A stretch of 64,000 bases of DNA from Enchytraeus crypticus (taxonomy: Eukaryota; Annelida; Clitellata; Enchytraeida; Enchytraeidae). The stretch is taken from NCBI GenBank assembly GCA_905160935.1, contig CAJHZI010000475.1:511001-575000 (forward strand), in the 5' to 3' direction. The notes below the pieces were generated by a model, which did no database searches, had not been told where the DNA came from, and saw only the letters and a list, made by a program, of their open reading frames with translations. Positions 4,926 through 50,926 of the stretch are shown in pieces; positions within the stretch are counted from its first letter, which is position 1, and every line of letters starts with the position of its first letter. Made by a program: the position numbers and the translations under genes.

Positions 4926-7900
4926 ATGTTTACAAAATTACTGAATTGCGGGATGTTAATTCCTGGAAAAACTCCTGCTTCTTTCTATTCACATTCAAGA
5001 AAAGGTTGTATGGTATCTTCCATAGTACCTTACAATCCTCGATTTGAAATCATTGGAAGCAGATTTCTTACCAATCAATCTCATATTGCTTCCCCAGAGA
5101 AGCTAGATACTGTTGAGGGCACAAGGAGTCTAGGAATAACACCAAGTATGTTATATTTATTTTAATTTAATTGTAAATTCTAAATTTTAATTCTAAATTT
5201 AAAAAAAATTATTTTCATCCCAATTACATAGTTATCAAATTAGGAAAGTTAATCACGACTCTAGCCTCTATGCTAAGCAGAACTTTTCATGGGAACATTA
5301 TATGTAATAGAATTCATTGTGTGCTCTGTTGATTCCTTGCTGTATTGTGCAATTGTTGTAAAAACCTAATTTGCTATTTTATTTATTATTTCTGATAGAA
5401 TAACAGTTTAATAGCAATTTATTTTTTCGGCCTACAAAATTTAAACATTATGCAGTTATTATATAATGATAAGATACTTGTACCTCATGTTTTGTTACAT
5501 ATTTATTACTGAATTGCCTGCATAAATTCATAATGTTGTGATACCATCGCCAGATTACTAGGAAATTTGAATAGATCTATTTAATACTGGTGCTTAGTTA
5601 TCCATGATTTTACTTTACTTTTGTATACTTAAAAATCTTATGCTATCTTTTTTATGTTAATTACGATTTAGAGGAACAAAAGCGACTGCAGAGGCAGAAG
5701 CCAGCAAGGCAGAGGGCAGACACTGAAATACTGAAAGTAGCGATCATTGGAGCCCCAAATGCCGGCAAGTCTACGCTTACAAATCAACTGCTGGGTTGGA
5801 AGGTAAGATGATAATTTAAATGGAAATTAGGTGCATGTTATATATGTAACAGAATGAAAGATGATAATTTAAATGGAAATTAGGTGCATGTTATATATGT
5901 AACAGAATGAAAGATGATAATTTAAATGGAAATTAGGTGCATGTTATATATGTAACAGAATGAAGGATGATAATTTAATTGGAAATTAGGTGCATGTTAT
6001 ATATGTAACAGAATGAAGGATGATAATTTAATGGAAATTAGGTGCATGTTGAAGGATGATAATGTAAGGTGCAGAATGAAAGGATGATAATTTAAATGGA
6101 AATTAGGTGCATGTTATATATGTAACAGAATGAAGGATGATAATTTAAATGGAAATTAGGTGCATGTTATATATGTAACAGAATGAAGGATGATAATTTA
6201 AATGGAAATTAGGTGCATGTTATATATGTAACAGAATGAAGGATGATAATTTAAATGGAAATTAGGTGCATGTTATATATGTAACAGAATGAAGGATGAT
6301 AATTTAAATGGAAATTAGGTGCATGTTATATATGTAACAGAATGAAAGATGATAATTTAAATGGAAATTAGGTGCATGTTATATATGTAACAGAATGAAA
6401 GATGATAATTTAAATGGAAATTAGATGCATGTTATATATGTAACAGAATGAAAGATGATAATTTAAATGGAAATTAGGTGCATGTTATATATGTAACAGA
6501 ATGAAAGATGATAATTTAAATGGAAATTAGGTGCATGTTATATATGTAACAGAATGAAAGATGATAATTTAAATGGAAATTAGACACACATTGTATATGT
6601 AGCAGAACGAATAATATAGAAGTATTAGTAGTTAGAAGCTAAAGCTCTACTTACATAGGCATGCAGGCTTCAATCATGACTTAGCTTGGTCATCTGCTGT
6701 CATAATGTGCACATGCACAAAAGTCAAATACTTGCATACTAGTGTGCTTAGTGGATTTGTTTAGCCACTATTCTAGTCATACTAGCAATCAATCATTTAA
6801 CGCCAGTTAGAAGGTCTAATTTGTGTGAATATTTCACCTCATCTAGCTTTGGTTATCTCTAATAAAATGTGTTTTATTGCTCTAGATTGCCCCAGTATCT
6901 GCAAAAGTACATACAACAAGACAACGCACCCTTGGAGCTTTAACCCAGGAGAATAAACAAGTGGTTTGTTTTACTTTGATTCTTTTTAGTTTATGTGTAA
7001 ATATGTTTCATTTTGAGCCTTTTTAGTTTATGTTATATGTTTCATTTTGAGTCTTTTTAGTTTATGTGTAAATACGTTTTTAGTTTGAGTCTTCTTGGCA
7101 TATGTATAAATAAACTAATGATGTTTAGTCTTTGTAAAGGGTATTTTCTGAATTTGTAGGTTTGATTTATGTTGATTTAAACATATGCATCTATGTTTTC
7201 ATTCGATAAAGAAAGATTATATAAAATATTTTTTTATCAAAGGACATAAATATCGTGAGACAACCTTGATAGATGGTCACTTAAGCACATGTTGTTTATC
7301 GACAGAATTAAGTAAATACAAATATTAATAAAGAGATAATTTATCAAATGAAACTGCCCATCTGTATTGTGTTGGGCTCATCTGTTGTTTGTTGGAACAC
7401 ATCCTAACTCGTAATGAGCAGTAACATTTTATATAATGTGTTTAAATATTAATACTGTATTGTATTGTATTCTATTTTACTGTTTTCTATTGTATTCTAT
7501 CAAGTAATACATGGTATTATATTGTATTATATTTTGTAAAGTAATAATTGTATTCTATTAGCACTTGTCATGTGTTGTATTAATAATTATTCCTTCTTTT
7601 AATGATATCTGACTTAACGCAGAAATCTTACCTAGTTAGAAAAGCGCTTACAGGTTCATACAGGTGAATACACAAGTGCATTATCATCAATCATTGTGCA
7701 AAGTAATTGCATCGTAATTGTATTGCATCGTATTGTCAGGCATTGTGTAGAGTTATGCTCTCTATTGTTGTATATTGCTATATACTGTATATTTAGATTT
7801 TCCTTGACACTCCGGGAATAATCGTTCCAGGAAAAGTAAAAAAGTGAGTTGATATAATTTGATTTGTAATTTATTTAGTTTTATGTGATTCATGATAAAA

Positions 7901-10900
7901 AATTACTGGCTGCCATTTACTGGCTACTCTCATTAACGATAGCTTATATTATACAGAAATCTTGATTTTTTTGACTAGGATTAGGATGAAGTTTAAACAG
8001 AATATTTACTAAAGTTATAACGACAATATTTATGTAAGAAATTGATGCAATTTTGCCCTTGTCGTTTATCTTATCTATTTTCTCTATATATTGTATCTTC
8101 TGCAGCAGATAATAATCATATTAATCTTCTGAAAATTGATCTTTATTTTATGTACTTTTACATATCACGATGTACAGTCGCTATCTTTCTGATGTAAAAT
8201 CTATGTATTTATTTTGACTTATTGAGAAAGATTTAATAGATTGATAAGTATTATTTTACATATATATCCATGGTTGATGGTAGTACTCTAATTGCTCTTG
8301 TATACGCGCAGACATAATTTGGAGAAAACCCTCCTCATTGATCCGCATTCTGCTATTGAAGAGGCTGATTTAAGTGAGTTTTATATTTTTATTTTTATTT
8401 TTGAATTTTTTTAAAAATGAGTCTCTTTTTATTTAAACTGTTTTAAAATTTTGTTTTAGTTTTTTTAGTGACATTGTCTTTTTTATCAATCTATCTCGTG
8501 CAGTCTTGTTTTGCTATTAGTTATTGGTATGATAAAGTTATTGGCTTGACACTTTATATTTACATGTTTCATTGTTTTGCTATTCATATGACGTCATAAG
8601 CATTTCTACATTGCCCAATATGCTCAGACTCACTCAGGACAATTTATTGAGTGTTTTATTATGTTTTTACTAAATTTTATTTTGTTAATTTATTTTTGCT
8701 TTATAATTATTGTTCTTTTACGGTTCGCAGTGGCGGTCTCACTATTTGTATTTTGTATAGTTGCAGTGATGATCTCACTGTTTGTATTTTGTACAGTTGC
8801 AGTGGTGATCTCACTGTTTGTATTTTGTACAGTTGCTGTGGTGGTCTCACTGTTTGTATTTTGTACAGTTGCTGTGGTGGTGGACGTATCACATGTTTGG
8901 CACAGAGCCAAGCTTGATCTTGAAATAATGAAAGCTCTTCAACTTCATGTGGACAAGAAATCTATTTTAATATTAAATAAGGTTAGTGTTTTATCAATTC
9001 AAATTTAACACCCATATCTTGAGCTACCAGTGACATTGAGAGGAACTTTGTTGATGTTTTGGCATGGCTGTGGTTTTCTTGATTCTGCTAACAGAGGATT
9101 CTGCTTTAATTCAGTTTGGATATTATACCTCAAGGTTCTTAATGGTTGATCATATTCAATTCTTCATTACGACGCAAAGAGTTGCAGTTTTAATGAAAAT
9201 AAAATTGCAATATAAAAAGACATCTGTACAAGATGTAGAATAAGATATCTGTTCTTACTGGACTTAAATATTATTTATGTTTATCTCTGATAATCAGGAA
9301 TCTTTTTCTTTAATTGATTTATTGATAAATATTCTCATTTTTAGTACAATAACCTAAATCATATGTTTCAAAGATCCCAACAACTGTTATAGAATATTGA
9401 ACTGCTATTTACTGATTAATCGTATCTTACCAGTAAGCTCCATGTTCATTAATAATAATAAAAGGTTTAACGTCCGTTTCCTCATGCTAGGATGATGTCA
9501 AGGACATCGCCATTATTGACTGCACAGGTTGATCTGATAAAAGACAAGCAGGAGCTGTTGGGCGTGGTCAGAACTTTGACTGACGGCATTGTGGGAGGAG
9601 TCAAAGATTGGTCGACTAAGCGAGAGAAACGTAGCCCTGTTAATCTGCAACAGCTGTTTGATAAAACCAAAACCGTTACATTGTCTGCGGTTAAACAGCG
9701 CAGCGGGGAAAAGGTCCGGAATATGAAAGAATTTGAACCTAAGACCGATTCTACATCTTTTGTTAATCGTCAGATGAATGATGCCATCAGTAATGATGCC
9801 ATCACTAATGATACCATCATCCGTAATGATGGCATCAGTAATGGCATGGACTCAACAGTTAGAATGCCTCCATTGTCAACGACAACATCTAGTACTACTT
9901 ACTCTTCTTCTCGTGGTGAATTATCTCAAAATATTCAGCAGAAATATAACAAGCTGGGAAGTTCCAAAGAGTGGGAAACTTCAATTTCTGATGAAAGTGA
10001 CATTTCTGCATGTAGTCAAGCCGATGGTTTACTTGTAAGTGGCACCACTGTGGCTTCAATCAATAGTAAAATAATTGAATCGTTCCCAACGCAAGACAAT
10101 AATCTGTCGATAGATATTTGTGAGAGCATTCTGTCGCTAGACGAATGCTCTTACGATGAATGCACTGATGATGATATGAAGTCAAGCTATTCATCAGATG
10201 TCACTACTCAAAACTATAAAATTTCTCCTGTTAATAGCCACAACGATACAAAAATTAGTAGAGACAGAATACCTTCTAGTGATTCTACAGGTAAAAGAGA
10301 TTCTAATATTGAAAGAACTTCCAATGTTGAACTAGTAACTTATTCAAAAGCAAAACCTGGAGATGGTAGCGGTGAGTTTCCAGAAAGCAGTGATAATACT
10401 GACTTTGCTAAGCGCTGTAACGATGATCTCTCATCTTGGAGTCCGAAAGAATCCACGCAGAGAGATTTGTCAGTCCCTGACGCTTGGAATGATTACTACA
10501 AGAAATTGAAACAAGTTGAACAGCTGGTCCGAGAAAGGAGGGGTTGGTCACATTTCAGTCGAGTCTTCATGATATCTGCTATATCCGGTGACGGAGTGAC
10601 TGAAATAAAGGTATTTTCTTAGATTAAAATAGTAATAATATTAAAATTATTAACTTTCGTTTTGGTTTCGTTTTTAGATAAATCTACTTTTACATGTCAG
10701 GCCTCATTCAGTGCACGCATTCATTTATTTAATCATCCTCCGAGAGCTACGTTACTTATGAAAAGATAATTATTTATATTAGATTTAATTTATTTTTCAG
10801 GAATTAATAATAACAATAAGGGGTAGAATGTAAGGAAAAAAGAGGCAGAGGCAGGCCGAGGTTAGGTATGTTAGATGATTTAAAGATCCACTCATATGTG

Positions 10901-13900
10901 AACATGAAGAGGAAAGCGGAAGACAGAGAAGAGTGGAGGCGTTATATACCATGAACCTGCCAGTAGGTAGTGCACTAAGAGAGAATAATATAGGTGTAAC
11001 GTCCATTTCCTCATCTAAGAATGATGTCAGGGATGTTAAACTGCTATATTGGAGTGTGACGTTAAACCGCTATATTGGACCCCTGTGCATTATGATTTTC
11101 TACTTAAGAAGCTTAATAAATATTTTGTAAAAACAATGTTATTACTAGTTATTATTAGTATTATTATTATTATTATTTGTCTAATTGTTTGATCTATGCT
11201 GTTATTGTGGTGATGCTAATTTGTTTACAATGAAATTGTTTTCTCGTAGGACTATTTTCTGAATTCAACGTACAGATCCGATTGGCTGTATCATCCTTCC
11301 TTAGTTACAGACCAGAATCCCATGAGATTGGCGAAGCTGTGCGTGTGGGAGAGGTAGGTGAGGTTGTTGTTGTTGTTGTTCTTGTGGTTGTTGTTTCACA
11401 GGCTGATTTGAATGACTGGTTGTAGCTGAATAGATTGTATGGACACAATATGGATCCAATAGTATTGTCAAACGTTATCTTTAATCTTTCAAATTCTGTT
11501 AGTTTTAATCGAATAATAATAATAACAACAATTAGAGTGATACTGTCGTCAATGACAACATCGAGCACTTTTATTATTTATTTTTTATCAAGTATTTTTT
11601 TACATTAAGAGACTCATGTGTTAAACATAGTAATTATTAACTGTGACTTATTTAATTAAGCTATTTGTTTAAATGTTAATTTATATTTTTATGATTTATT
11701 TCTTTTGCAATTTATTAACTGGCTCCATTTCTACGTCAATAAAGCTGCTACTTCCATCGGCCGCTATATTGGTCGTGCAGTTTCGTGTATTCAATTAAAT
11801 GGCCCGTGATCACAATTGTTTGTATTTATTTTGACCGTGGCTTAGATTGATTTACAGTATTGCATTCTAGATTATTATTTGCATTTAGTCAAAAACGTTT
11901 GTAATAAATTTTTTTATTTTATTCTTGTTTACCATCCATGCTGCAGTTTTAGACGAATGAAATTGATTCAGTATAAACTGACGCAGTGTTAATATCTAAG
12001 AATATTAACCGAAGACTTTTTTACTTATTCTCTCCGCTTTTCCAAAATTTTAGACTTTACCACAATTTTAATAAATTATCTTCAACCTGTTTGGTAGTGC
12101 TCGTATCAAAACCTCCTAAAGCATCATCAGCGATGGACGAACCCATGAGATTTGAACCCAATATCCTCTATCCTGAAGAATGCTGAGCCAATGTGCCACT
12201 GATATACCTCACTGTGTTAGTTGTTATATGGTGTGGACGCTTCTTTACAAATACTTCTGTCTACAGTTGCACCACTCTGTTTTAAGATATCATCAGTTGA
12301 TTTAATGATTTCAATTGTCATTGTGACATTTAATGATTTTAATTGTCATTGTGACATTTAATGATTTTAATTGTCATTTTGACATTTAATGATTTTAATT
12401 GTTATTGTGACATTTAATGATTTTAATTGTTATTGTGACATTTAATGATTTTAATTGTTATTGTGACATTTAATGATTTTAATTGTCATTGTGACATTTA
12501 ATGATTTTAATTGTCATTTTGACATTTAATGATTTTAATTGTTATTGTGACATTTAATGATTTTAATTGTTATTGTGACATTTAATGATTTCAATTGTCA
12601 TTGTGACATTTAATGATTTTAATTGTCATTGTGACATTTAATGATTTTAATTGTTATTGTGACATTTAATGATTTTAATTGTTATTGTGACATTTAATGA
12701 TTTCAATTGTCATTGTGACATTTAATGATTTTAATTGTCATTGTGACATTTAAAGATTTTAATTGTCATTGTGACATTTAAAGATTTTAATTGTCATTAT
12801 GACAGACTGTTGGAGCATTTGCCTGACGAGATACCGTATGAAATCACTGTGGTAAGTTTACAGGATATTTATCGTTTCTACTCTTTTTCTGGTGGCCAGT
12901 GATGGGTATGGGAAACTTTAGGTAAATAGTCAAGGAATGTGAAGGAAGGCTTCCGTTGAATCCTAATTTTGTAAAACTATTGACAGTTTGGTGTTAACCC
13001 ATGTTGAGGCCGGGTTGCAGATGAATGAACCAACCGTGGATTGCATATGTCGTAAAAAGGCGACAATGCACTCATTTGTCATAAAAAGGCGACAATGCAC
13101 TCATTTGTCGTAAAAAGGCGACAATGCACTCATTTGTCGTAAAAGGGCGCTCATTTGTCGTAAAATGCACTAAGATTCAAACCAATGTCAAAAAGAGTTT
13201 TTTTATGCGTGTATCTAGTGGTGACTGGTTTCATTCAGATTACTTTTAATTTGTCTGCAAAGTTTATTTTGATGTGGAATTGAGTTTGTGCAATGTATAT
13301 GGCCTCTTGCCTTCATCAGAGAATGTATGTGTTAGAATGTTATGCTATTGTTTACCCACAATGAACTCTTCTATTGTAATCTAGCATTTGTAGATGTTCT
13401 ATTGATTTAGACTATATCTATTAATAAATTCTGTTTGAATGTATGTGAAACGCAAACTATAATAATACATGATACTTAAATCCCAGAAATTAATGAAAAA
13501 TGCGTGTTCCAGTTCTCCACAAATTCTACTTATTCTCATTAATTCTGTATTTGTTATGTCTTAATTCTGTATTAGAATGTCTCAATAGCGTAGGGGTAAC
13601 GTCGTGAAGTTTTAAGTGACAGATCCTGAGGTGCATTAAACCTCGTGGGTTCGAATCCCGGCCGCGCTGATCTGAGAGTAAATTCTCGAACATTCACTGG
13701 ACTGGTTACACGGAAAATGATCTAAATTGCCTAACGGTTTAAATATGTGGTATTAAAAAGGATAGATATCGACATAGTTGATCATTTCACTATAATGCGT
13801 GTTTACGTTTTTACTTTATTTATTGCTTCAACAGAGGCTTTGCTGTTGGGAGATGTCAGAGGAAAGCCTTTGGAGAGCCAGTTTTGATATCATCTGTCCG

Positions 13901-14567
13901 GAGAAGAGACATCTAGTGAGTATTGTATTGAGATAAGAGACATCGGATGAGTAAGCTAGAGGATAGTGGTGCTAATCCATGCCTGACCACTTCTGCCAGT
14001 AACTTTTGTATGGAAACAGAAATTAAACTTATTGCTGTTTAGCTTTGTTGATATATTTTGAATACTTTGTTGAATTGTTTACTAATCTTTAATTTTTAAC
14101 ATATCTACGGATGTTTTGGTTTCGTACTTGTCTGACCTTTTATTTATAAAATTTAAATTTTGTATTTTGTATTTGTTGCTTGATACTGTAAAGATGTGGA
14201 AGTTCTGTGCGTGCGAAAGCCTAATTGTTATATAAAGCTAAGGGTAACGTCAGTTTCCTCACTCGAAAGCGATGTCAGTGACGGGTGAGCCCAGGATTTG
14301 AACCCGCATATAATAATCCGCGATCGAGTATCTTACCGACATCGCTACTGGCTCCAGCCATAATATATTTAGTATTGCTCTACATAAGAGGTTTCTTTGC
14401 TGTTTCAGCGTCATGTTCTTGGGCCCAATGGCAGAACGATACGTACGATAGCATCGGAGTCTAAGCAGGAGCTAATGAACGCTTTTAGACGGGATCTCTC
14501 GCTGCGGCTAGTGGTGAAGGGTTCCCGTAGTGGCATTATCAGCAGTGCTAAAGAGGGCTATCACTAA
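4926..14567 (+). CDS. ERAL1: ERAL1-like mitochondrial Era GTPase, 11 exons
   Basis: Era-family GTPase that chaperones small-subunit rRNA, in animals the mitochondrial 12S rRNA. Exons read from the sequence: 4926-5145, 5672-5802, 6886-6960, 7797-7843, 8312-8373, 8869-8981, 9528-10610, 11250-11353, 12806-12851, 13835-13915, 14409-14567 (TAA). All phases agree, giving 706 residues. G1 is GAPNAGKS (100-107), the G2 threonines follow KVH (127-128), G3 is DTPG (146-149), G4 is NKVD (215-218, split by an intron), G5 is SA (566-567). The KH domain follows, with LLEHLPDEIPY (613-623) and GPNG (659-662). ATG 4926 is preferred because TTG 4911 is not a normal eukaryotic start; the basic N terminus fits a mitochondrial presequence. 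Odd: about 330 residues of Ser/Asp/Asn-rich sequence between G4 and G5, and four tandem 3' splice sites before exon 6. The orthology is secure; the start codon is less so. Confidence 0.92.
5807..6590. repeat. Minisatellite in ERAL1 intron 2, about 53-bp unit
   Basis: About 14-15 tandem copies of a unit beginning GATGATAATTTAAATGGAAA and containing GTGCATGTTATATATGTAAC. The first unit starts about five bases after the exon 2 donor, and the donor region GGTAAGATGATAATTT resembles the unit boundary GAAAGATGATAATTT. A shortened, rearranged unit lies near 6045-6075. Confidence 0.95.
8730..8885 (+). repeat. Tandem 36-bp repeat carrying the ERAL1 exon 6 3' splice site
   Basis: About four copies of a 36-bp unit ending TTTGTATTTTGTACAGTTGC. 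Each contains a pyrimidine/T-rich stretch and an AG, and each copy leaves the reading frame open, because 36 is a multiple of three and no unit holds a stop. The copy nearest the exon gives an acceptor at 8867-8868 and the best fit to Era proteins (IAVVVDVSH). The first copy reads TATAG instead of TACAG. Confidence 0.9.
9455..9515 (+). mobile_element. Retroelement tail module before ERAL1 exon 7
   Basis: AATAATAATAAAAGGTTTAA followed by CGTCCGTTTCCTCATGCTAGG and GATGTCAAGGACAT. The same module recurs near 11000, 22405-22470, 31640-31700, 45020-45090 and 48020-48070. Here it lies directly upstream of the exon 7 acceptor at 9526-9527 and may provide part of that splice site. Confidence 0.6.
10826..10990 (+). 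mobile_element. LINE 3'-end fragment, family C
   Basis: Translation gives a piece resembling the C terminus of a LINE ORF2 (GRGRPRLGMLDDLK, then AEDREEWRRYIP and a stop), followed by AACCTGCCAGTAGGTAGTGC and ACTAAGAGAGAA. Other copies at 16178, 21510, 27744, 46250 and 52930 share this end. Clade not determined. Confidence 0.65.
11513..11570 (+). mobile_element. Partial family B repeat
   Basis: AATAATAACAACAATTAGAG followed by TGATACTGTCGTCAATGACA and a terminal ACATCGAGCACT; the copy stops after about 58 bases. It lies in an ERAL1 intron. Confidence 0.6.
12297..12805. repeat. 28-bp minisatellite abutting the ERAL1 exon 9 acceptor
   Basis: About 17-18 copies of a unit built from GACATTTAATGATTTTAATT and GTCATTGT, with C/T and G/T variants. 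The final unit runs into the 3' splice site as TCATTATGACAG at 12794-12805, so the acceptor AG is a point-mutated unit (GACATTT replaced by GACAGAC). Confidence 0.95.
12995..13200 (+). mobile_element. Interspersed repeat, family H, with internal tandem copies
   Basis: The copy contains GGCCGGGTTGCAGATGAATG, then a block around TCGTAAAAAGGCGACAATGC repeated three to four times with a 29-bp period, then a CACTAAGATTCAAACCAATG end. Related single-block copies are at 41190-41300 (+), 46595-46690 (-) and 49015-49255 (-). Confidence 0.55.
13572..13806 (+). mobile_element. tRNA-derived SINE, family G (about 235 bp)
   Basis: A tRNA-like head (CAATAGCGTAGGGGTAACGT) and a good B box (GTGGGTTCGAATCCCGGCC) are followed by a tRNA-unrelated body (TCACTGGACTGGTTACACGG, then CATGTGG-like and ATAGTTGATCATTTCACTAT). 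Two further copies at 22075 and 52313 share the whole length, in the same orientation. Confidence 0.75.
14235..14360 (-). mobile_element. tRNA-derived SINE, family A
   Basis: On the minus strand: TGGCTGGAGCCAGTAGCGAT, a tRNA-like region, B box GGGTTCAAATCCTGGGCTC, and the tail GAGTGAGGAAACTGACGTTA. It lies in the last ERAL1 intron. Confidence 0.75.
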
Positions 14568-14569
14568 AT

Positions 14570-14860
14570 TATCTGTACCACTGGATTAACTGTACCCTGA
14601 ATCATCTGTAACACTGGATCAACCGTACCACTGGACTAACTGTACCACTTAATTAACTGTACCACTTGATTAACTGTACCACTGGATTAACTGTACCACT
14701 GAATCAACTGTACCACTGGATTAACTGTACTACTGGATTAATTGTACCACTGAATCAACTGTACCACTGGAATAATTGTGCCCTGAATTAACTGTACACT
14801 GAATCAACTCTACCACTGAATCATCTCTACCACTGAATCATCTCTAGCCTTAAGCAAGCT
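14570..14860. repeat. 17-bp minisatellite starting at the ERAL1 stop codon
   Basis: About 16 diverged units of TACCACTGGATTAACTG occupy the start of the 3' UTR, beginning three bases after the TAA. Variants replace GGATTAAC with GAATCAAC or GAATCATC. Confidence 0.9.
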
Positions 14861-16356: not shown

Positions 16357-16359
<3 letters not shown>

Positions 16360-17352: not shown

Positions 17353-17366
17353 ACACACACACACAC

Positions 17367-20860: not shown

Positions 20861-20913
20861 AGCGAGTAGAAAACTAAACGATGATAATAATTTAGCCTAG
20901 ACGTGAATATATG

Positions 20914-20998
20914 ACGTCAGTTGACGAGCAGCCTGTGAGACTTCATGGGTGGGGCGGAGTCATAGAGAGTGTCAGTGATTGGGCGAGAGGAGATGACG
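20914..20998 (-). repeat. Tandem copy of the FBXO11 C-terminal coding end
   Basis: About 80 bases directly after the stop codon repeat the last coding bases at 20994-21075: both contain CCCATG-like GTCTCACA blocks, GTCAACTGACGTCAT and the CACTGACACTCTCTATGACT block. The copy has small changes and lies in the 3' UTR, so it should not be translated. Confidence 0.85.
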
Positions 20999-38701
<17,703 letters not shown>

Positions 38702-40399: not shown

Positions 40400-41030
40400 A
40401 CAGTGGTCATACACGATCCGCTTTGCCATCAAATTTATCTGTTCAGCTATCTGAAGAGCCGTACGTTGATTTGACCTGGTATATACAGGAAGGCCGTGTA
40501 ACAGTGGTCATACACGATCAGCTTTGCCATCAAATTTATCTGTTCAGATATCTGTCTCAGATGTCTGTTCAGAAATATGTTCAGATATCTGTTCAGATAT
40601 CTGATGAGATATATTCGATCGTGTACGTATGGGCTCGTCGATTTTGAAAACTGACGAGAGAACCGATAACTTATACCTATTTATCTTATTTAACCGATAA
40701 CTTATCCCCACACACGGTCAAATTTAACTGTTTAAACTTAAGCTTATCTGATATCTTTTCAGTTAAATTTGATCGTGTATGGACTCGTTAACGGCGTAGT
40801 AGCTTATTTCAGCCGTTAATGGGGCCTGGCGTAAGACGGCGGCGTAACGGCGTAGTAGATTTTTCAATCGTTGATTGGCCTGGCCTAAAAGCGTAGTAGC
40901 TTATTTCAGCCGTTGATTGGGTATGGCGTAGGAAGGTGGCGTAACGGCGTAGTAGCTTATTTGAGTCGTTGAATTGGCCTGGCGTAGGAAGGTGGTGTAA
41001 CGGCGTAGTAGCCCTGTTTATCGCGAGAGT
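40400..41030. repeat. Two diverged tandem repeats
   Basis: At 40400-40600 a block around GTCATACACGATCAGCTTTG occurs twice, followed by TCAGATATCTG units. At 40795-41015 a roughly 60-bp unit containing GGCGTAGTAGCTTATTTCAG and CGTTGATTGG recurs about four times. Open frames on the minus strand follow this period. Confidence 0.8.
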
Positions 41031-41374
41031 TCTCCAAGGCAAGGATGGGCGGAGACACGAGCCTCGTTACCAGTCCTGGACACCAGTCAACCAAATACGA
41101 TCAATCAGCTAAACTCTTTCAGTGATGAGACAGAGTTAATCTTTTAAAATTGTGTTTATTAATTAAATAAACTAAATCCCCGTGTTGTGCCCGGGTTGTT
41201 AGAAGAATTGACCAACCCGTGACTGTACGTGTCGTAGAAGGCGACTAAAGCACTAAAATCCATACCAACGTCAGAAAGGGCATTCGGTTGGTAAGCTCCT
41301 AGGATCCAGAAATTGCTAAGAAATTTTAACGAATGGAAAGTCTCAAATAGGGGATTGTAAATATACTAAATGAG

Positions 41375-42092
41375 CTGAGGATTTAGAGGAAGAGTTTAGC
41401 TGAGGACTTAGAGGAAGCGTCTAGCTGAGGATTCAGAGGAAGAGTTTAGTGAGGATTTAGAGGAAGAGTCTAGCTGAGGATTTAGAGGAAGAGTCTAGCT
41501 GAGGATTTAGAGGAAGAGTCTAGCTGAGGATTTAGAGGAAGAGTCTAGCTGAGGATTTATAGGAAGAGTCTAGCTGAGGATTTAGAGGAAGAGTTTAGTG
41601 AGGATTTAGAGGAAGAGTCTAGCTGAGGATTTAGAGGAAGAGTCTAGCTGAGGATTTAGAGGAAGAGTCTAGCTGAGGATTTAGAGGAAGAGTCTAGCTG
41701 AGGATTTATAGGAAGAGTCTAGCTGAGGATTTAGAGGAAAAGTATAGCTGAGGATTTAGAGGAAGAGTATAGCTGAGGATTTAGAGGAAGAGTATAGCTG
41801 AGGATTTAGAGGAAGAGTCTAGCTGAGGATTTAGAGGAAGAGTCTAGCTGAGGATTTATAGGAAGAGTCTAGCTGAGGATTTAGAGGAAAAGTTTAGCTG
41901 AGGATTTAGAGGAAGACTTAAGCTGAGGATTTAGAGGAAGACTCTAGCTGAGGATTTAGAGGAAGAGTATAGCTGAGGATTTAGAGGAAGACTCTAGCTG
42001 AGGATTTAGAGGAAGACTCTGGCTGAGGATTTAGAGGAAGAGTATAGTTGAGGATTTAGAGGAAGAGTATAGCTGAGGATTTAGAGGAAGAG
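41375..42092. repeat. 25-bp minisatellite starting at the Tec-like SH2 donor
   Basis: About 29 units of GAGGATTTAGAGGAAGAGTC with TAGCT. It starts about eight bases into the intron after the last visible exon. On the minus strand each unit reads CTCTTCCTCTAAATCCTCAG, a pyrimidine-rich stretch with a possible branch site and AG, so every unit resembles a 3' splice site. Confidence 0.95.
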
Positions 42093-42101
42093 TTGATCTA
42101 C

Positions 42102-43915
42102 CTGAAGTGTTCTTCTTGTGATGCATGATCAGCTCAGAGAGACGAGGGAATGGCTGACTGATGGAGAACATTCCATTGCTGTCTTTCTTTATTTTATAAT
42201 GAACTACTTGGCGTGGATCTGCATTTTGGCTGCTACCGGTGCCTCTGTGAAGCAATATATTGTAGCATTAGTAAGTTTAGAAACAGTCGTTCATGCAACA
42301 TCAAGTTCAAGATGTCAAAGCCCTGTACTGAAGATCTGTGTGTGGATCCACAACATGCGGACACTTCTGTATAGGCTCACATTAGCAACAACAAGAGCAA
42401 TTTTATGTTTCCTAAAGTCTTACCGGCAAACATGACCAAGGTAGGTAGACTATTAGGCTATGTTCGGTTAGGCTATTAGGCTATATGACAAGGAAATTGT
42501 GTTTCCAATAGTTAAAGAAAATTTACATAAATTCTGATGATAATTGATTGATTGATTGATAACGATGACTATAATAATAACAACAATAAGAACAATTAGA
42601 GTACTACAGTCATCAATTAAAACATCGAGCACTATTGAGACAAATTCAAGCCGATGAGCATTAGAAGGTCCAAATACGGTGCAAATTTCAAAATCCAGAA
42701 AATCAGTCCAAAGCTAGATGACTACAAATCAGTAATGACTTACTTAGTGCAGGAGTTGGTAAACACAGACAGAGTGTACGGATGATCTTTTGATTGGGAG
42801 TCTCTAATCAGGAATGCCCCCTCGTGATTTTCTTTCGTCAACAATTCCTCGGCTTTCTCTCGATCCAGGTCTCCAAAGTACCAACTGAAAAAATGCCAAA
42901 ATGGAATACAAAAACAATCGACAATGAAAACCTAACTAGCGAGACTAGTGAAAGCTGGAGAAACAAGTTAAACAACGATTTCTGCATCCGTCCCTGAAGT
43001 TTATAATTGTTTGTTATTAGTCATTTGATGACAGTCAGCTTTTGACTGAGTATAAAAGCAGCTCAGTAAATAGTGTAATTTTGTGATCAATCTTTTATGA
43101 TCTACGGTACCTTATATTCTCCTACCACAAGCCCCAAATTCCTTCTCTCGAAGAAGCCGGGTCCCCACCAGTCAAATCCCGCCCTAGTGCTTAGATGAAA
43201 CCAATCAGCTACCTTAACACAGCTGTAGTTCTTAGATGACAGCCAATCAGCTACCTCAACACAACTATAGCTCTTAGAGGAAAACCAATCAGCTACCTTA
43301 ACAAAGCTTGAGTTCTTAGATGACAGCCCATTGGCACTATCGGATAGAGTGACATAAATGAAAAACGCTTGACTTGACATAGATAGAGTGACATAAATGA
43401 AAAAAGCCTGATCTGGGTAAAAAAACTGGAATCTAGGTCATCAGTTCTCTTGTCAGTGTTTCCAGTAGTTTTCGCCGACTCATGATCAAATTTATCTTGT
43501 CAGATTTCAGATCAGATAAATTTTATCTGAGATCAGACTGATAGTTTGAAAACTGAGCGCAGTTGGATACTTTTAGATGACAACCAATCGGGTAGAGCGA
43601 GGCAAACCAGCTTTTAGATGACAACCAATCGGGTAGAGCGAGACAAACCAGTAAACACATACTTGTACTTAGCGAGAACCTCTTCGCCTGATGTGCTCTT
43701 CGCATTGGTCGGCATTAAATAATTGGCTGGCGCGCAACCAATACTCCTGAAACAATCATCAAAGCAGCTAAATATGAATATCGTCTTTTCACGCTCTAAG
43801 AGTGACTAATTAATAATTAATTAATAAATTAATTAATTCATAGTAAACAAACTATGTACACAAGCTCTCCAGACAAAAGACGCAGCCGGTGTGACTAGCT
43901 AGACCTTTAAGTGCG

Positions 43916-43946
<31 letters not shown>

Positions 43947-45067
43947 CCTCCACTCGGCCTTCTGCTATAGGTCGACCAAAAGCTATATAGGCTACGCAGA
44001 ATTAGACTGCCGGCTCATATTTGGAAATATTTTCAGAATATTCCAGACGCCTGAAAGCTTAATTTAAATATGAATTTTAGCTTTTATCACGCCAATAAGC
44101 AGTACATCAAGAAAAGCTACAAAAGCTAATATTAACGTCAGTTTCCTCAAACGAAAGCGATGTCAGTGACGGGTGAGCCCAGGATTTGAACTCCTCACAT
44201 ACTGATCCGCAGTCGAATATCTTACGACATCGCGATTGGCTGGATCGAATATCGAATAAAGCTATTTCTCACTGATAAATCAGATAAAATAAATATGTAT
44301 ACATGTACGAGTGTATTAGCTAAATTAGTACAATATTATCCCTGTCAATGCAATTTAATAATATAACTTAAATCCATCACTCCTATATGCTGCGTGCTAT
44401 CGTCTAGTTATCAGGATACTGTATGCCAGAATATGCACCGTTAATTGACCTTTTTATTGATTGTTGATGTCTCGTAGGTGAGACTCATGATAACACAGTG
44501 CTAACTGTTGTCATGGCTAATGGCTATCACCCTTATTGTATATTTTTGTTGTTGTTGGCTGAAGCCAGTAGCGAAGTCGGTAAGATACTCGACCGCTGAT
44601 CAGTAGGTGCGGGTTCAAATCCTGGGCTCGCCCGTCACTGACATCGCTTTCGAGTGAGGAAATTGACGTTAACCTTAGCTTTGCCAGCTTTTAAATAGTC
44701 AATTTTCTGACAAGTTGAATTTTCAAGGTCAATTTTTCTGACAAGAGTAGCTTTTAGCTTTAGCTTTTTTATTGTTGTTTTTATTGCTGTTGTTGTTGTT
44801 CTTGTGCTACTTGCCCATCCGTTCTGCTCTTCACCTTCCACCAGTTGATGTTCTCTTCCACCAGAACTTCATACTCCTGCCCCTGCAGTAAACAACAATT
44901 AGAGTGCTACAGTCATCAATAACAACATCGAGCACTAATGAAAGAAATCCAAGTCAACGTAGAGCTCCTACTGAGCAACAGAGCTGAATTTGTGTTGGAA
45001 TATGTACTTAAGTTGGAATTTGTACGTCCCTGACATCATCCTTGAATGAGGAAACGGACGTTAAACC

Positions 45068-45102
<35 letters not shown>

Positions 45103-48100
45103 CATTATTATTATTATTATTATTATTAAGATTGTGCAGAGTCTGCATGAGAAGTTCATGACGTTGGCCTATGACGAGGAACCGGACGTCAGAGTCTTAT
45201 TGATTGATCCAATTAAAAGTTAGTCTTATCATTAGTCTTATTTGATTGATTAATAGGACCTGCCACTCACTTAACACTAGAGGGAAAAAGAACATTCTCT
45301 GTTTGTGTAACATTTAATCAAAACCTAGGCTAATATTGAACTGAATTTTCGAAAGCGCTCATTTCCAACTTACCCTTTTAAGACCCAAGTCACCAGGTTC
45401 TATAGGACTGAAGTCAAACAGCGCAACGAATACCTTCTGCAACACAAAACAATCCAATTCAACATTTCATAAGTTCAATAACTATGTCAATATAATCTAC
45501 ACTTATAACTGCCATCGATCAGTTAGAAAAACAATTTAGCTTTGAAAATAAAGAAATTATAGCAAAAAAACCGAGAGTGATAAGCTTCAATTCACTGACT
45601 TAGGAATAGCAGAATGTGCACTATAAGTCATTTACAAAACGGCGGTTTTGAATTTAACTCGAAGTTGTTCACACAAAAATACTAAACAAATAAATGTGAC
45701 TTGTTAAAAATCACATTTAAAAATAAAAATTAAAAGTCAGAAATTCAGTACAAAGTAAAGGGAGTTTCTTTAACTCCCTTTACTTTGAACTGAATTTCTG
45801 TATTTTGGAATTTGACCCGTTTTGGACCTTCTTCTTTTTGCTCGCCGGCTTGATTTTGTCTCAATAGTGTTGTCACTGATGACTGTAGCACTCTAATTGT
45901 TGTTGTTGTTGTTGACTAACAAGTGAAAACGTTCAGCAAAGTTAGAATAAACGCTGTTTATTCGGTCTAACGTAACCAGCATCAACGATGATATCTATCA
46001 CTATTCAGTCTCACCGGTTTAGTGCGAGGTTTAAGGACGGGTGGTGGCTGTGGTGGTCTAGTGGACGAGGGATTAGGACTTCCGGGAACTGACTGGATAG
46101 GGACTGCAATCCTGGAATCAGGGATTGGTAATGGAACTTCGAAATCATCTGATTTCTCTGATGTGTGAGATATTGTTCTGCAATCAGTATTGTCGGTGAT
46201 GGTTTCATCTGAAATATATAAATAAATTATATAAATGTGATAATTCTCAGTCGTAGTGCACTGCCTACTGGCAGGTCCATGGTATATGGCGCCTCTACTC
46301 TTCTCTGTCTTCCGCTTTCCTCTTTATGTCCACATATGAGTGGGTCTTTAAATCATCCATTAAACTTTAAATCATCATCATCCATTAAACTTTAAATCAT
46401 CATGAGTTAATATATTTCTAAACATATGACGTCAAGCTGATAGCGTGGGATAAACAAATAATTGAGTTAATTAAAAAATGAGTTAATTATATCACAATAA
46501 TAGACTTCATTTTCCCTTGAATCTCAGTTTTACAAGGGTCGCGATTAGAAAACTTTGTACCAATTTCTGAAGCCTCAGCGCGCATCACCCGAAGGCCCTT
46601 TCGACAATGTTTTGGATCGTAGTGCTTTGTCGCCTTTTACGACACGTGCAGTCGGATACAACAAGGGTACTATGACAATAATAATATCCGTAGTAATTTG
46701 ATTGAGATGAAAAAACAAATTTTCTGTCAGTAGTAATAGGCCTAGAGCACAAGAAAAGAGTTAACTTTACAAAATGTACAAACTATATTAACAACAATTA
46801 GAGTGCAACAGTCGTCAACGACAACATCGAGCCCTATTGAGTCAAAATCAAGCCGGCCAGCAAAATGAAAGGTCCAAAAACAGTGCAAATATCAAAATCC
46901 AGAAAATCAGTCCAAATTAAAGGGAATTAAAGGAAATAAGGTTTTGGTGCTGAAAAGAAGGTTTAGACTTATCACAATTGATCTATTTTTGTCTCGTACG
47001 TACCCTCGCAGTTCTTCTCCAGCTTATAAGAGATCAGGCGACCCTGTGGAGAGGTAGGTACCGGGATCGCTGGCAATCTTTTCTTTTCCATACTCCAGGA
47101 TGTAGGCTCACAGCCTCCTGCCCTACGATCGATGTTGTCACAGCACGGATACCTGCCGGCGTGGAAAGCAGCAGGGTGGAAGAGGTCAACTGGATTGCAG
47201 AAACCTGAGTGGAATAACAACAACAACAATACGATTAGAGTGCTACTGTTATCCAAGACAACATCGAAAACTGTGAAACCAAATTTGAAACCGATGAGCA
47301 GATTGAGGGGTACGTAAACGGTGCGAGCAGTAGTTAGTAATAGGCACTACAGTAGAACATAGTAGCAGTAGAATGGTAGGAATTAATTACATTACGTAAA
47401 ATGTATTGCATTATGTATTATGTTGTTCAGTGCAGTAGTAGTAGCTAAAGGCATTATATAGTACAGTATCAGTACAGTAATAGCAGTTAATACATTATAT
47501 ATTACAGTACAATACAGTAGGAGCAGTTAAATACGTTATATAGTACAGTACAATACAGTAGGAGCAGTTAAATACGTTATATAGTACAGTACAATACAGT
47601 AGGAGCAGTTAAATACACCACACAATGGCAAAGCATTTAAAGTTAAACTCAAATTGGATTCTAAAAACATAAATATCACTACTTCTCCACTTCCAAGGCA
47701 CAAATTAAATTCGACTGGCAGACCAATAAGTAACTGTTCATTCATCGGTTCTCTGACACTGCTTTCTTCCGATCTCTCAACCGAGAACCGAACCCACGAA
47801 ATAACTTCATGATGTTAACATTTCACGACGTTATCTGACGCTCTACACACTGAGCTATTGAAAACAGAGTAGTACAACCTGTATTGATGCACGCGGTGCG
47901 AACAGCTTCTAGCCAGGCTCTTCTCTGATCTGTGTGAGAGGTTTTGATATATAATGTGGCCGTCTCGTCATCATCGTCAGTCTCCGGGCGATACACTATC
48001 TGAAAAACCAATCATTCAATCAATAAGATTTTAACGTCCGGTTCCTCGCCATAAGGCAATGTCAGGGACGTAACATTTATTCAACAAATTAAACATTTAT

Positions 48101-50926
48101 TCAGTTTGATTTGAAAAGCAGCATGAGTAGGAATATGTACCTTGGACCTGCCGCTTGGCAGAACACGAGAGAGGGTTTTATTTGACTATTTCATAATCTT
48201 CAATTTTCAGTTGTGGAATTTTACTTAGTGTTCTTCATGCACATTTATAATGCAATTAGTTTTACTTTTTTTCGGTTTTTAGGGCAACACAAAATTTAAG
48301 CGTTGTTTTTACTATCTGCCTATTTCACTGATTCAAATTATAAAACTGTTTTCTTTACAATTTTATGTTTAGCTTTTTGGTGATGCACTGCAGAAACTTC
48401 AGTGAATTATCAAGTCATTTTTTCTACATATTCATTATTTCAATAGCATCAACATCATCATCATTGAATTCCAGTTTAACTAGGGTCGGGATGCGAATAG
48501 AAATATTTCCATTCGTTTTAGAAAATCTTGTAGCAATTTCTGGAGCCTAGGCTCTCACCAACTTGTTCATGAATTAATTAATTAACCACCATGTTCATTG
48601 ATTAAAAAATAAAATGTACAAATCGGCATACTGCTAATTTCGTAACAGTTCTTTGGCTCAAATGCCTAAAGCAACAAATAAGATTACAGTTCAAGTATCA
48701 CTTCACGTTTTCTACAAATCAGAGGAAAGAAATACTAAAGTCTACTAAGTGACACTTGAAGATTTATCGTAAAGAGGGATCTTAGGCTATGTCTATTACA
48801 ACCCGGGTTATACAGAGGTCTAAATCTCTTATATAAAATAGATGTACGTACATGTATCTAACCTGGCCACTCCGTTAATCGTTTCATTTAATTTCCGGTC
48901 ATACACAAGTTTCAAAAGTGTTGCCCTCAGCCCTTCTTTTATGCTCCCGCAATTTTCACAACTTTTATATTAGTAACTTGTAAAACGATAATCAATCAGT
49001 CAATTAGAGTCACATGATCTTTATTCCCTGTTTAGCTAGGGTCGGGACACTAATTGACCTTCTCCACCACCCTGTACGGGATTGGGAACTTTTCCGTTCG
49101 TATTAGAAAATATAGTAGCTATTTCTGGAGTCTTTACGCTCGTCAACCGAATGCAATTTCTGACGTTGTTTTGGATCTTAGTGCTATAGTCGCCTTTTAC
49201 GGCACGTGCAGTCTACGGTTGGTCTATTCTTCAGTAACCCGAGCTCAACACGGGTAATCATAATTTTACAATTATGAATTAAAAATTTCTCTCTCCCTCT
49301 CTCAAAGTCTAAGGAAGCAATGTTATACACACAACACAAATCAGATTTGTTTACTGTTTAAACATATGCCTCTGAAGGGTAACACACCATCGCTACCCCC
49401 CTCCCCCAAATATATTCCGCCCCCTCCAGCTCTTAAATCTCAACATGGAGACCACAGCCTAGCAGCACTTGGGTTTGTTTTATCTAAAATTGTCATTAAT
49501 TGTCTCGTTTGTTTCCTGGTATCGACATTTGTTCAATCTTCCTGTCGAAAAGTTTGCTTTCAAAGTAACTGAACAAATACCAAGCGTCTTATAATTAAAT
49601 ACATTCTGCTTGTATGGAACAGACGCTACCCCTACATTGTATAGAAGACATTATGTTTTATTGATTGATTGAGTAATTGATTTATTTATTTATTGATTGA
49701 TAGATAGATTGATTGATTAATTGATTGGTTGATTGATTAATTGATTAATTGATTAACTGCTTAATAAAATGATTGAATATTTGATTGATTAATTAATTAA
49801 TTGATTGATTAATTGATTGCTTGATTAATTTATTGATTGATTAGCCTGAGCTACTTAACCTGGAAGACGAATTGTTTTCCACCGATGTGTTCAGGTTTAG
49901 TGTTAATTGATCGGTTGATTGATTGCTTGATTAATTGATTAATTAATTGATTGATTGATTGATTGATTAATTGATCGATTGATTGATTAGCCTGAGCTAC
50001 TTAACCTGGAAGACGAATTGTTTTCCACCGTTGTGTTCAGGTTTAGTGTTAATTGATCGGTTGATTGATTTCTTGATTAATTGATTAATTGATTAATTGA
50101 TTTATTGATTAATTGATTTATTGATTTATTGATTTATTGATTTATTGATTTATTGATTATTGATTATTGATTGATTAATTGATTGATTGATTGATTGATT
50201 GGCCTGAGCTACTTAACCTGGAAGACGAATTGTTTTCCACCGATGTGTTCAGGTTCAGTGCGCTCCACCGCTATCACACAGTTCAGCACCACCGAGCCCT
50301 TCACCTTGCCAGGGCCAGACTATATAATCAATCAATCAATCAATCAGTTAATTAATGATTTAATTAGTCAGTCAATCGATCGATCAATCGATCAAGAGAT
50401 CGATCAATCAATCAAAAAATTCACAAATAAAAAATCGATCAATTAATTAATCAATCAAATTAGTCAATTAATCGATCAATCGGAACTGAAAACTTATATG
50501 TTTAACTTACTAATTGATTGTTTACCATGTCTATCTTTTGAAGACTGATTTACTAATCAATAAATCGATTTGACTTGAATCGATGGATTAATTGATATAT
50601 TGGCGAATAGAAGCCAGTTGATTGATATATTGACAGATTGATTGATTGATTGATTGATTAATTGATAGATTGATAAATAGATTGATTGATAGATAGATAG
50701 ATTGATTGATTGATTAATTGATAGATTGATAAATAGATTGATTGATTAATTAATTAACCTCTAAGCTCCCCTCACAGTAGTAGAGTGCCTGGGGACAGAG
50801 TAGGAACCAACGACTCTTGTAATTGTCCACCCTTCCTCTTCTCTTCAGTGATCTCTTCACCATAAAGTCGTACTTTATTATGTGCTCCTCAGAGATACAC
50901 TTAGGTAAGTTCTCAAATAAAGGCAT
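42102..50926 (-). CDS. Tec-family gene: PH, Btk motif, SH3 and SH2; no kinase exons found
   Basis: Exons: 50759-50926, 50218-50319, 47879-47999, 47004-47204, 46015-46208, 45374-45436, 44815-44882, 43663-43746, 42744-42884, 42102-42244; all phases agree over 428 codons plus one base. A PH domain (1-130) starts MPLFENLPK. The Btk zinc motif has H140, C151, C152 and C162, with exactly the BTK spacing. Then come KKRLPAIP, a proline-rich linker (RPPQPPPVLKPR), SH3 (263-about 325, ALFDFSP, NWWKVKS, PANYL) and SH2 (335 on, WYFGD, FLIRDS with Arg361, HYKI). Family members are cytoplasmic tyrosine kinases recruited by phosphoinositides. Here the last exon ends in phase 1 (HHKKNTS) and no SH2 end or kinase exon follows before FBXO11. 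The intron 7 donor looks like GC (GATGG, then GCAAGT). The gene may be truncated, misassembled or adaptor-like. Which Tec paralogue it is cannot be told. Confidence 0.88.
42572..42718 (+). mobile_element. Interspersed repeat, family B
   Basis: AACAATTAGAGTACTACAGT, GAGCACTATTGAGACAAATT, then AATCCAGAAAATCAGTCCAA. Lies in the intron between the two SH2 exons, antisense to the gene. Confidence 0.65.
43186..43345. repeat. Tandem repeat of about 45 bp between SH3 and SH2 exons
   Basis: Three to four units containing CCAATCAGCTACCTTAACAC and AGTTCTTAGATGACAG. Minus-strand open frame across it is a by-product. Confidence 0.85.
43572..43652. repeat. 41-bp direct repeat at the donor of the last SH3 exon
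   Basis: Two copies of TTTTAGATGACAACCAATCG with GGTAGAGCGAGGCAAACCAG, ending about 10 bases from the donor at 43661-43662. Confidence 0.9.
44114..44245 (-). mobile_element. tRNA-derived SINE, family A
   Basis: Minus strand: CCAGCCAATCGCGATGTCGT head, GAGTTCAAATCCTGGGCTCA B box, CGTTTGAGGAAACTGACGTT tail. Confidence 0.75.
44556..44693 (+). mobile_element. tRNA-derived SINE, family A, near full length
   Basis: TTGGCTGAAGCCAGTAGCGA, GCTGATCAGTAGGTGCGGGT, TTCAAATCCTGGGCTCGCCC, and tail through AACCTTAGCTTTGCCAGCTT. Confidence 0.8.
44889..44958 (+). mobile_element. Partial family B repeat beside an SH3 acceptor
   Basis: AACAACAATTAGAGTGCTAC to AAAGAAATCCAAGTC. It starts within five or six bases of the acceptor AG of the exon at 44815-44882. 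Confidence 0.65.
45020..45128 (-). mobile_element. Retroelement tail module with long (TTA)n
   Basis: ACGTCCCTGACATCATCCTT, GAATGAGGAAACGGACGTTA and AACC followed by about 65 bases of TTA repeats. Confidence 0.65.
45716..45916 (-). mobile_element. Family B repeat with a terminal foldback
   Basis: Minus orientation copy (TAGAGTGCTACAGTCATCAG to GGTCCAAAACGGGTCAAATT). Its end is an inverted repeat: arms about 45738-45766 (CAGAAATTCAGTACAAAGTA onward) and 45770-45799, separated by three or four bases. Confidence 0.75.
46250..46360 (-). mobile_element. LINE 3'-end fragment, family C
   Basis: Minus strand: GATGATTTAAAGACCCACTC, AGGAAAGCGGAAGACAGAGA, ATGGACCTGCCAGTAGGCAG and TGCACTACG. Lacks the GA tail. 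Confidence 0.65.
46595..46690 (-). mobile_element. Family H fragment
   Basis: Plus strand TTTTGGATCGTAGTGCTTTG, TCGCCTTTTACGACACGTGC and AGTCGGATACAACAAGGGTA, matching 49170-49230 and the reverse of 41210-41260. Confidence 0.5.
46790..46930 (+). mobile_element. Interspersed repeat, family B
   Basis: AACAACAATTAGAGTGCAAC, AAATCAAGCCGGCCAGCAAA, ATCCAGAAAATCAGTCCAAA, then a short TTAAAGGGAATTAAAGG remnant of the foldback end. Confidence 0.65.
47219..47325 (+). mobile_element. Interspersed repeat, family B, diverged
   Basis: (CAA)n, then GATTAGAGTGCTACTGTTAT, AAACCGATGAGCAGATTGAG and ACGGTGCGAGC. Lies about 15 bases from the acceptor of the Btk-motif exon. Confidence 0.6.
47400..47615. repeat. 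About 42-bp tandem repeat
   Basis: Three good and one or two diverged units containing GAGCAGTTAAATACGTTATA and TAGTACAGTACAATACAGTA. Confidence 0.85.
47755..47872 (-). mobile_element. tRNA-like sequence related to SINE family G
   Basis: Minus strand: CAATAGCTCAGTGTGTAGAG (A box), ACGTCGTGAAATGTTAACAT, and GTGGGTTCGGTTCTCGG (B box). The long A-to-B spacing and the ACGTCGTGAA block recall family G, not a working tRNA. Confidence 0.45.
48018..48072 (+). mobile_element. Retroelement tail module
   Basis: CAATAAGATTTTAACGTCCG, GTTCCTCGCCATAAGGCAAT and GTCAGGGACG. Lies directly upstream of the third PH exon. Confidence 0.55.
49015..49255 (-). mobile_element. Interspersed repeat, family H, longest copy
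   Basis: Plus-strand view: TTTAGCTAGGGTCGGGACAC, ATTAGAAAATATAGTAGCTA, TTTTGGATCTTAGTGCTATA, GTCGCCTTTTACGGCACGTG, and CGAGCTCAACACGGGTAATC. A shorter partner lies at 48470-48560. Confidence 0.5.
49640..50200 (-). repeat. (TGAT)n-rich array with copies of a PH exon end and donor
   Basis: ATTGATTGATTAATT tracts alternate with two copies, at about 49850-49910 and 49990-50052, of a block matching 50203-50260: GCCTGAGCTACTTAACCTGG, AAGACGAATTGTTTTCCACC and TGTGTTCAGGTT on the plus strand. This is the last 40-odd bases of the second PH exon plus its donor (minus: TTCGTCTTCCAG, GTTAAG). Confidence 0.9.

Follow-up and report, generated by a model that had tools for sequence, protein, structure and literature searches.

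Relation to known repeats at exon edges

Minisatellites that run across exon-intron boundaries, known as mirages, have been described in amphioxus in Adh3, the globins BflGb6 and BflGb9, troponin C and PGBD5 (PMC3087553, PMC3902484). In these reports the repeats span the boundaries at both 5' and 3' ends, the units are about 10-160 bp long, AG and GT occur in the copies, the exon is intact and the frame is open. The window analysed here, the whole stretch of 64,000 nucleotides from the annelid Enchytraeus crypticus, contains arrays that fit this structural definition of mirages: the boundary is spanned, exon bases are copied and both 5' and 3' ends are involved. Repeats running across exon edges are already known from amphioxus, and the present arrays appear to join them. 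Unlike the amphioxus cases, several genes are hit here and most arrays in contact with a junction carry no exon bases; a coverage control and a sense TTGA bias are also added by this study.

Two further systems are comparable. In the Rogers model, as cited in PMC3087553 and also treated in PMC4974935, tandem duplication includes splice-like sites, as it does here; that model deals with intron gain, whereas the duplications in the window lie within existing introns and no intron gain is shown. In Daphnia, PMC3152781 describes T-rich motifs favoured on the intron sense strand, whereas the bias found in this study concerns the 30-60 nt that immediately precede the acceptor.

Gene models and repeat content

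The genome totals 524 Mb with a G+C content of 36%. Tandem Repeats Finder gave 148 rows in the window, which merged into 83 arrays; these account for 21.6% of the window sequence and for 27.5% of modelled intron sequence, and the share of intron sequence in arrays is about 20-28%. Exons of FBXO11, the Tec-like gene and ERAL1 were searched for by tblastn with human FBXO11, human BTK and E. coli Era. Exons silent in tblastn (several of ERAL1 and the Tec-like gene) were filled in by eye from reading frames, and exons were joined at GT/GC-AG sites with phase agreement. The resulting models of ERAL1 (plus strand, 10 exons), FBXO11 (minus strand, 17 exons) and the Tec-like gene (minus strand, 10 exons found) all have an open frame. 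PDB matches bear out the identity of FBXO11 (UBR domain 7yrb, 1e-43), ERAL1 (mitochondrial Era 8csp, 4e-73) and the Tec-like gene (BTK 8gmb, 8e-29), and FBXO11 is 72% identical to human FBXO11. A repeat-blind spliced aligner reproduced 15 of the 16 FBXO11 introns exactly; its error, at exon 4, consisted of calling a repeat copy as an additional exon, an example of how exon-edge copies mislead gene finders.

The exons found in the Tec-like gene are of PH-like, BTK-motif, SH3 and SH2 type. No Pfam match to a kinase domain was found in the next 5.6 kb toward FBXO11 (window 42102-36500, minus strand); the gene may be truncated, or its kinase may be located elsewhere. A GC donor (GG/GCAAGT, the slash marking the junction) at window position 44814 on the minus strand, after exon SH3b, is required by the reading frame. 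ERAL1 exon F (window 9528-10610, plus strand) measures 1083 bp and includes a coding repeat with a 15-bp unit (9777-9843); in the ERAL1 protein the GTPase and KH parts are about 309 residues apart, against about 31 in the human chain. A Sprouty domain exon lies at about 62223-62556 on the minus strand (Pfam 8.8e-21).

Tandem arrays at intron and gene ends

An array within 20 nt of a modelled intron end was counted as a contact. All 15 arrays that the sequence-only reading had listed near splice sites do lie within about 20 nt of modelled junctions. The 34 introns of ERAL1, FBXO11 and the Tec-like gene have 68 ends, and our count gives 21 contacts among them, 13 at acceptors and 8 at donors; 14 were already on the earlier list and seven are new (intron ends 6964, 11354, 23819, 25645, 28184, 50320 and 50758). 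The Tec-like contact at 42093 (listed as 42092) falls outside the 34 introns, as the next exon was not found. The arrays at intron and gene ends are given below in window coordinates, the seven contacts absent from the earlier list being marked as new.

5805..6611, plus strand: 53-bp array, 2 nt into the intron after ERAL1 exon A (intron start 5803)
6967..7093, plus strand: 34-bp array, 3 nt into the intron after ERAL1 exon B (intron start 6964); new
8719..8881, plus strand: 36-bp array reaching 13 nt into ERAL1 exon E (start 8869), acceptor and first exon bases copied upstream; mirage
11363..11395, plus strand: (GTT)n, 9 nt into the intron after ERAL1 exon G (intron start 11354); new
12300..12804, plus strand: 28-bp array of 18 copies, ending one base short of the final intron base before ERAL1 exon H (12806)
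14562..14838, plus strand: 17/51-bp array from the final ERAL1 codons past the stop (ends 14567); a coding edge, not a splice site
20904..21059, minus strand: direct duplication, period 82, of the final FBXO11 codons, the stop codon and the bases after it
21138..21377, minus strand: array 9 nt ahead of FBXO11 exon 17 (start 21128)
21853..22071, minus strand: 16-bp array 15 nt ahead of FBXO11 exon 16 (21837)
23158..23270, minus strand: arrays upstream of FBXO11 exon 14 (23153); mirage
23507..23580, minus strand: 24-bp array, 17 nt into the intron after FBXO11 exon 13 (intron start 23597)
23821..23861, minus strand: sense (TGAT)n ending 2 nt ahead of FBXO11 exon 13 (23818); new
24205..25565, minus strand: 38-bp array of 36.7 copies that overlaps FBXO11 exon 12 by 7 nt (intron start 25558); mirage
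25655..25747, minus strand: sense (TTGA/TTGG)n, 10 nt ahead of FBXO11 exon 12 (25644); new
28177..28401, minus strand: sense (TTGA)n array in contact with FBXO11 exon 9 (28183); new
28887..29032, minus strand: array 3 nt ahead of FBXO11 exon 8 (28883)
31995..32097, minus strand: 24-bp array 20 nt ahead of FBXO11 exon 6 (31974)
33375..33609, minus strand: array with a 21-nt overlap with the start of FBXO11 exon 4 (33395); mirage
34895..35069, minus strand: 71-bp array with a 27-nt overlap with the start of FBXO11 exon 2 (34921), exon-start copies and (TGAT)n; mirage
41373..42093, minus strand: 25-bp array of 29 copies, about 8 nt into the intron that follows the last exon identified in the Tec-like gene (exon end 42102)
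43570..43651, minus strand: 41-bp array, 11 nt into the intron after Tec-like exon SH3c (intron start 43662)
49660..50201, minus strand: (AATC)n and two more copies of the end and donor of Tec-like exon PHb (intron start 50217); mirage
50326..50481, minus strand: sense (TTGA)n, 6 nt ahead of Tec-like exon PHb (50319); new
50618..50755, minus strand: sense (AATC)n, 3 nt into the intron after Tec-like exon PHa (intron start 50758); new

Comparison between the genes showed three donor and two acceptor contacts in ERAL1 (9 introns), two and ten in FBXO11 (16 introns) and three and one in the Tec-like gene (9 introns). Contact is made at one end only in 17 introns and at both ends in 2 of the 34.

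Contact compared with chance

Whether contacts beat chance depends on the null chosen. With intact blocks dropped into their own introns, 4.9 contacts were expected against the 21 seen, and 21 was never reached in 20,000 trials (p<5e-5); a null in which the seed unit was allowed to straddle the junction gave 7.8. The block null depresses the intron edge because a block forced to fit inside an intron rarely reaches its end. The coverage null compares array sequence in the 21 junction-adjacent bases with that in any 21 bases of the same intron, and for the window it predicts 19.1 contacts among the 68 ends against the 21 found (p=0.31). A random intron position is in or near an array in 33% of cases and junctions in 31% (21 of 68), figures that overturned the block null as a decisive test of excess. 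When each type of end was compared with random positions of these introns, acceptors gave 13 contacts for 9.5 expected (p=0.083) and donors 8 for 9.5 (p=0.83). The excess over shuffled positions that the sequence-only reading named as support for its claim is present in the 34 introns under block shuffling (21 against 4.9) and is not found under coverage (21 against 19.1). Its statement that chance would not place arrays in this way is not established, the intact-block null being rejected and the coverage null not.

The base adjoining the junction is depleted in arrays, being part of one at 1 of 34 donors and 4 of 34 acceptors where 8.5 were expected. Across 71 introns (the window and the genes described below), array density is at the bulk mean from about 8 nt off acceptors and about 20 nt off donors, and 25-100 nt ahead of acceptors arrays cover 23-28 of the 71 introns, nominally above the bulk mean of 15.1. 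The median length of arrays is 156 bp in contact and 58 bp in the interior, and edge and interior arrays showed no difference in copy identity.

Neutral turnover was simulated without junction preference by letting introns acquire, expand, lose and delete sequence, with parameter sets matched on length, coverage and array number. The simulation is crude: its segments have no sequence, and the draws from which the nine sets were selected were not counted. The nine sets gave 7.7 to 20.4 contacts; 21 contacts were unusual (p<0.01) in six and not unusual in three. On a rerun two of the nine left the matching range, and among the seven that stayed 21 was unusual in five and not in two. Nine unmatched sets gave contact fractions of 0.096-0.271, all below the observed 0.309. 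Overall, seeding at junctions is neither needed by the data nor, in modest form, contradicted by them.

Replication in CLTC and flanking genes

The clathrin heavy chain gene CLTC, which lies on another contig (C189), was picked for its conservation, blind to repeats. Its model, obtained by automatic alignment, has 28 exons and 85.8% identity to human CLTC. Contacts were found at 15 of the 54 ends of its 27 introns, against 2.6 under the block null; under coverage, acceptors gave 8 against 5.68 (p=0.16) and donors 7 against 5.68 (p=0.32). CLTC, unlinked to the window, thus shows a like pattern. An NPR-like receptor guanylate cyclase gene beside the window gave 2 contacts among 18 ends (0.77 by the block null, 3.7 by coverage), one of its 10 introns having been dropped before counting for an uncertain acceptor. 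The pool also includes one ABLIM-like intron, the second of two predicted having been dropped. An esterase-like gene was dropped before counting as its model was unreliable (33% identity), and VCP was not used, its matches being of only 32-70% identity and spread across many contigs. Among the 71 pooled introns of six genes, 38 of 142 ends are in contact against 34.1 by coverage (p=0.20), with acceptors at 22 against 17.0 (p=0.067) and donors at 16 against 17.0 (p=0.70).

Copies of exon edges

Junction-straddling duplications leave copies of splice sites and exon edges. At ERAL1 exon E, upstream copies resembling TTTTGTACAG/TTGCAGTGG are spaced 36 nt apart. The array at FBXO11 exon 14 has a 36-bp unit in which the first 20 exon bases are copied, with (TGAT)n after them, and the start of exon 4 is copied five times upstream, TTTCAG preceding four of the copies. 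At FBXO11 exon 12, GATCAG/GT (last exon bases and donor) is present in all eight printed units beside the exon. In the Tec-like PHb donor array the copies cover the last 30 or more exon nt and the donor, with a period of about 146. Many of the copies keep AG or GT while the true exon and frame remain intact. One array was looked up across the genome, and this single array had a single full-identity place in the one haplotype available.

Exon edges of 30 nt were searched for with other introns as control and a cut at the 99th percentile, at which 0.34 hits are expected per end type. In the window, 4 of 34 acceptors (ERAL1 E; FBXO11 2, 4 and 14) and 2 of 34 donors (Tec PHb and ERAL1 B) exceeded the cut, and no antisense exon-edge copy did so. 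The Tec PHb donor copy matches at 30 of 30 nt and the FBXO11 12 donor has a 7-nt exon copy. The ERAL1 B donor copy lies about 700 nt into the intron in no array; it is probably due to chance and was left uncounted. Arrays with at least 13 exon bases occur at four acceptors and one donor of the 34 window introns, which bears out the earlier observation that some arrays carry copies of the splice site and flanking exon. Among the 27 CLTC introns, four acceptors and no donor exceeded the cut; three of the four acceptor copies are inside an array, and inspection by eye revealed copies of 7-9 nt at two donors. The copy in CLTC intron index 4 was rejected as a straddling array since it lies outside any array, which changed the count from 9 to 8 and p from 0.04 to 0.085.

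Exon-edge copies are thus present at 8 of 61 acceptors in the window and CLTC together. Arrays with at least 13 exon bases in these two loci number 8 against 4.5 under uniform seeding (Poisson p=0.085), and seven of the eight sit at acceptors. Inspection by eye also showed exon-edge copies in the donor array of CLTC (G000:C189:867301-895300) intron index 9, which has such copies in the acceptor array as well, and, at an NPR-like donor (G000:C382, about 608.9 kb, minus strand), array units resembling the exon end and donor CACTCAG/GTAGGCG.

TTGA repeats at acceptors

The last 30 nt of introns were searched for TTGA repeated twice in tandem on the sense strand. Such copies were found in 9 of 34 window introns against 1.90 expected (p<0.0005), in 5 of 27 CLTC introns against 1.35 (p=0.006) and in 2 of 10 flanking introns against 0.58 (p=0.06). 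Antisense TTGA was not found within 60 nt of any acceptor in the window, CLTC or the flanking introns, and within 100 nt it occurs at one window acceptor. Sense TTGA is present at 2 of 27 CLTC donors. Within 50 nt of the 3' end of window introns, the 5-mers with the strongest enrichment are TATTG, GATTG and ATTGA, with TTGAT ninth. The ABLIM-like case is on the opposite genomic strand from the rest, and therefore it is the sense strand, not the chromosome strand, that counts. Sense TTGA enrichment at 3' splice sites is clearly a junction-specific signal that survives an unbiased null. UUGAU would fit the animal branch-site consensus.

In Tec-like intron 1 (window 50320-50758, minus strand), (AATC)n at the start pairs with (GATT)n at the end when the intron is folded; the predicted fold has -111.7 kcal/mol and a z of -8.8 and would place the two splice sites next to each other. 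Pairing of intron ends as hairpins was rejected as a general cause, the folding having covered this one intron (PHa-PHb) of the 34.

Origin of the arrays at junctions

The explanation that we consider probable is ordinary local duplication tolerated up to the coding edge, with splice-compatible repeats kept at acceptors. It starts from what is observed directly, namely the positions of the arrays, the gene models, the exon-edge copies, the near-equality with coverage and the strand bias. Minisatellites and microsatellites would form by common local tandem duplication and expansion in an intron-rich genome; duplications would arise throughout the gene, and selection would purge the exonic ones. 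An edge-straddling duplication would be tolerated where an intact exon and a working splice site survive, and the leftover copy of the splice site and exon edge would turn into intron and may expand, giving a mirage. Arrays would reach splice junctions and stop codons because tolerance ends at coding edges. At acceptors, sense T-rich repeats, above all (TTGA)n, would be kept or would arise there, and they would be kept because they may act as the branch and tract region before the AG.

Tolerance agrees with a contact total close to coverage, with the like pattern in CLTC, with the sense TTGA enrichment at acceptors in the window and CLTC, with the depletion of the first intron bases, which constraint predicts, with the greater length of contact arrays, as expected when a fixed point samples arrays, and with a number of exon-edge copies within a factor of two of neutral straddling. 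Arrays also occur at edges that are not splice sites, namely at both known stop codons (ERAL1 and FBXO11), a number too small for a test; arrays take in or adjoin about 27% of window positions, and these cases are illustration, not proof. Against tolerance stand the strong rejection of the block null at both loci (21 against 4.9 and 15 against 2.6), the 7.8 contacts of the straddling-unit null, the six of nine neutral sets in which 21 is unusual together with the unmatched sets, all lower, and the coverage nominally above the bulk mean 25-100 nt ahead of acceptors. The acceptor bias of straddling arrays (seven of eight) is not predicted by tolerance alone.

Several of these points would also follow from a mutational process that seeds duplications at splice junctions, mainly at the 3' side, for example when the template slips or is switched within the T-rich tract or at transcription-linked breaks, an account that we regard as unlikely. 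Seeding at junctions had been suggested by the sequence-only reading. The rejected block and straddling-unit nulls, the straddling arrays (8 against 4.5, mostly at acceptors), the acceptor contacts (22 against 17.0, p=0.067) and the neutral sets falling short of 21 argue for it. Total contact is close to coverage (38 against 34.1), and therefore seeding at junctions is unnecessary as a general cause; donors show no clear excess (16 against 17.0), and the NPR-like gene alone falls below coverage (2 of 18 ends against 3.7). The part of the earlier interpretation that stands against an unbiased null is the sense TTGA enrichment ahead of acceptors. It also seems improbable that this animal, which is no lancelet, has a duplication process preferring 3' splice sites, with mirages throughout its genes and a steady supply of exon-edge copies; if true, such copies would be raw material for new exons or introns. 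Selection of acceptor repeats as splicing signals, sense (TTGA)n giving several branch-site-like or U-rich motifs, overlaps with tolerance and is a tentative possibility for part of the contacts. It is consistent with the sense-only TTGA within 60 nt of acceptors in the window, CLTC and flanking genes and with the lead of TTGA-type 5-mers in the last 50 nt; however, 9 of the 34 acceptors in the window have the repeat, junctions are also reached by minisatellites of other sequence, and antisense copies at one window acceptor within 100 nt and sense copies at 2 of 27 CLTC donors do not fit.

Retention of duplicated splice sites as back-ups, also raised by the sequence-only reading, found no support and is extremely unlikely. 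AG or GT is kept in many printed copies, but use of a second copy would put intron array sequence into the mRNA, the copies diverge from the true edge in several cases and there is no donor excess; in amphioxus, PMC3087553 reports that mirages do not disturb splicing. It is very unlikely that the introns were made by introners (repeat-bearing elements) or by AGGT-site duplication, the repeats being the introns' own ends. A retroposon-like family with a (TTG/TTA)n tail directly ahead of the Tec-like BTK and SH3b acceptors points to introners, but dispersed repeats, with families sought within the window, are within coverage at intron ends (5 of 34 acceptors and 1 of 34 donors against 6.06 each), and contact at one end only in 17 introns, with 2 of 34 at both, also argues against such an origin.

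Local duplication tolerated up to the coding edge implies that patterns of repeats at junctions can largely follow from array coverage and purifying selection, and the coverage null is the control needed for claims of repeats at junctions. In a genome with common exon-edge duplications, their proposed role in new exons or introns is open to testing; a function of simple repeats as branch or tract signals is also made testable by the cases in the enchytraeid window and CLTC.

Dispersed repeats in the window

An apparent enrichment of dispersed repeats at acceptors under the block null (5 against 1.34) was gone under coverage (5 against 6.06). The retroposon-like family is represented at 44890-44953 and 47198-47324 of the window and by other copies, with variable 5' ends; its (TTG/TTA)n tail takes the position of the pyrimidine tract at two Tec-like acceptors. 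Sequence patterns taken from two dispersed families and from FBXO11 had no match in the collections viral_contigs and genome_contigs. Another dispersed repeat, about 130 bp long and carrying a GGATTTGAAC motif, occurs at 14233-14360 and in at least 9 other places, and we take it to be like a tRNA-derived SINE in antisense.
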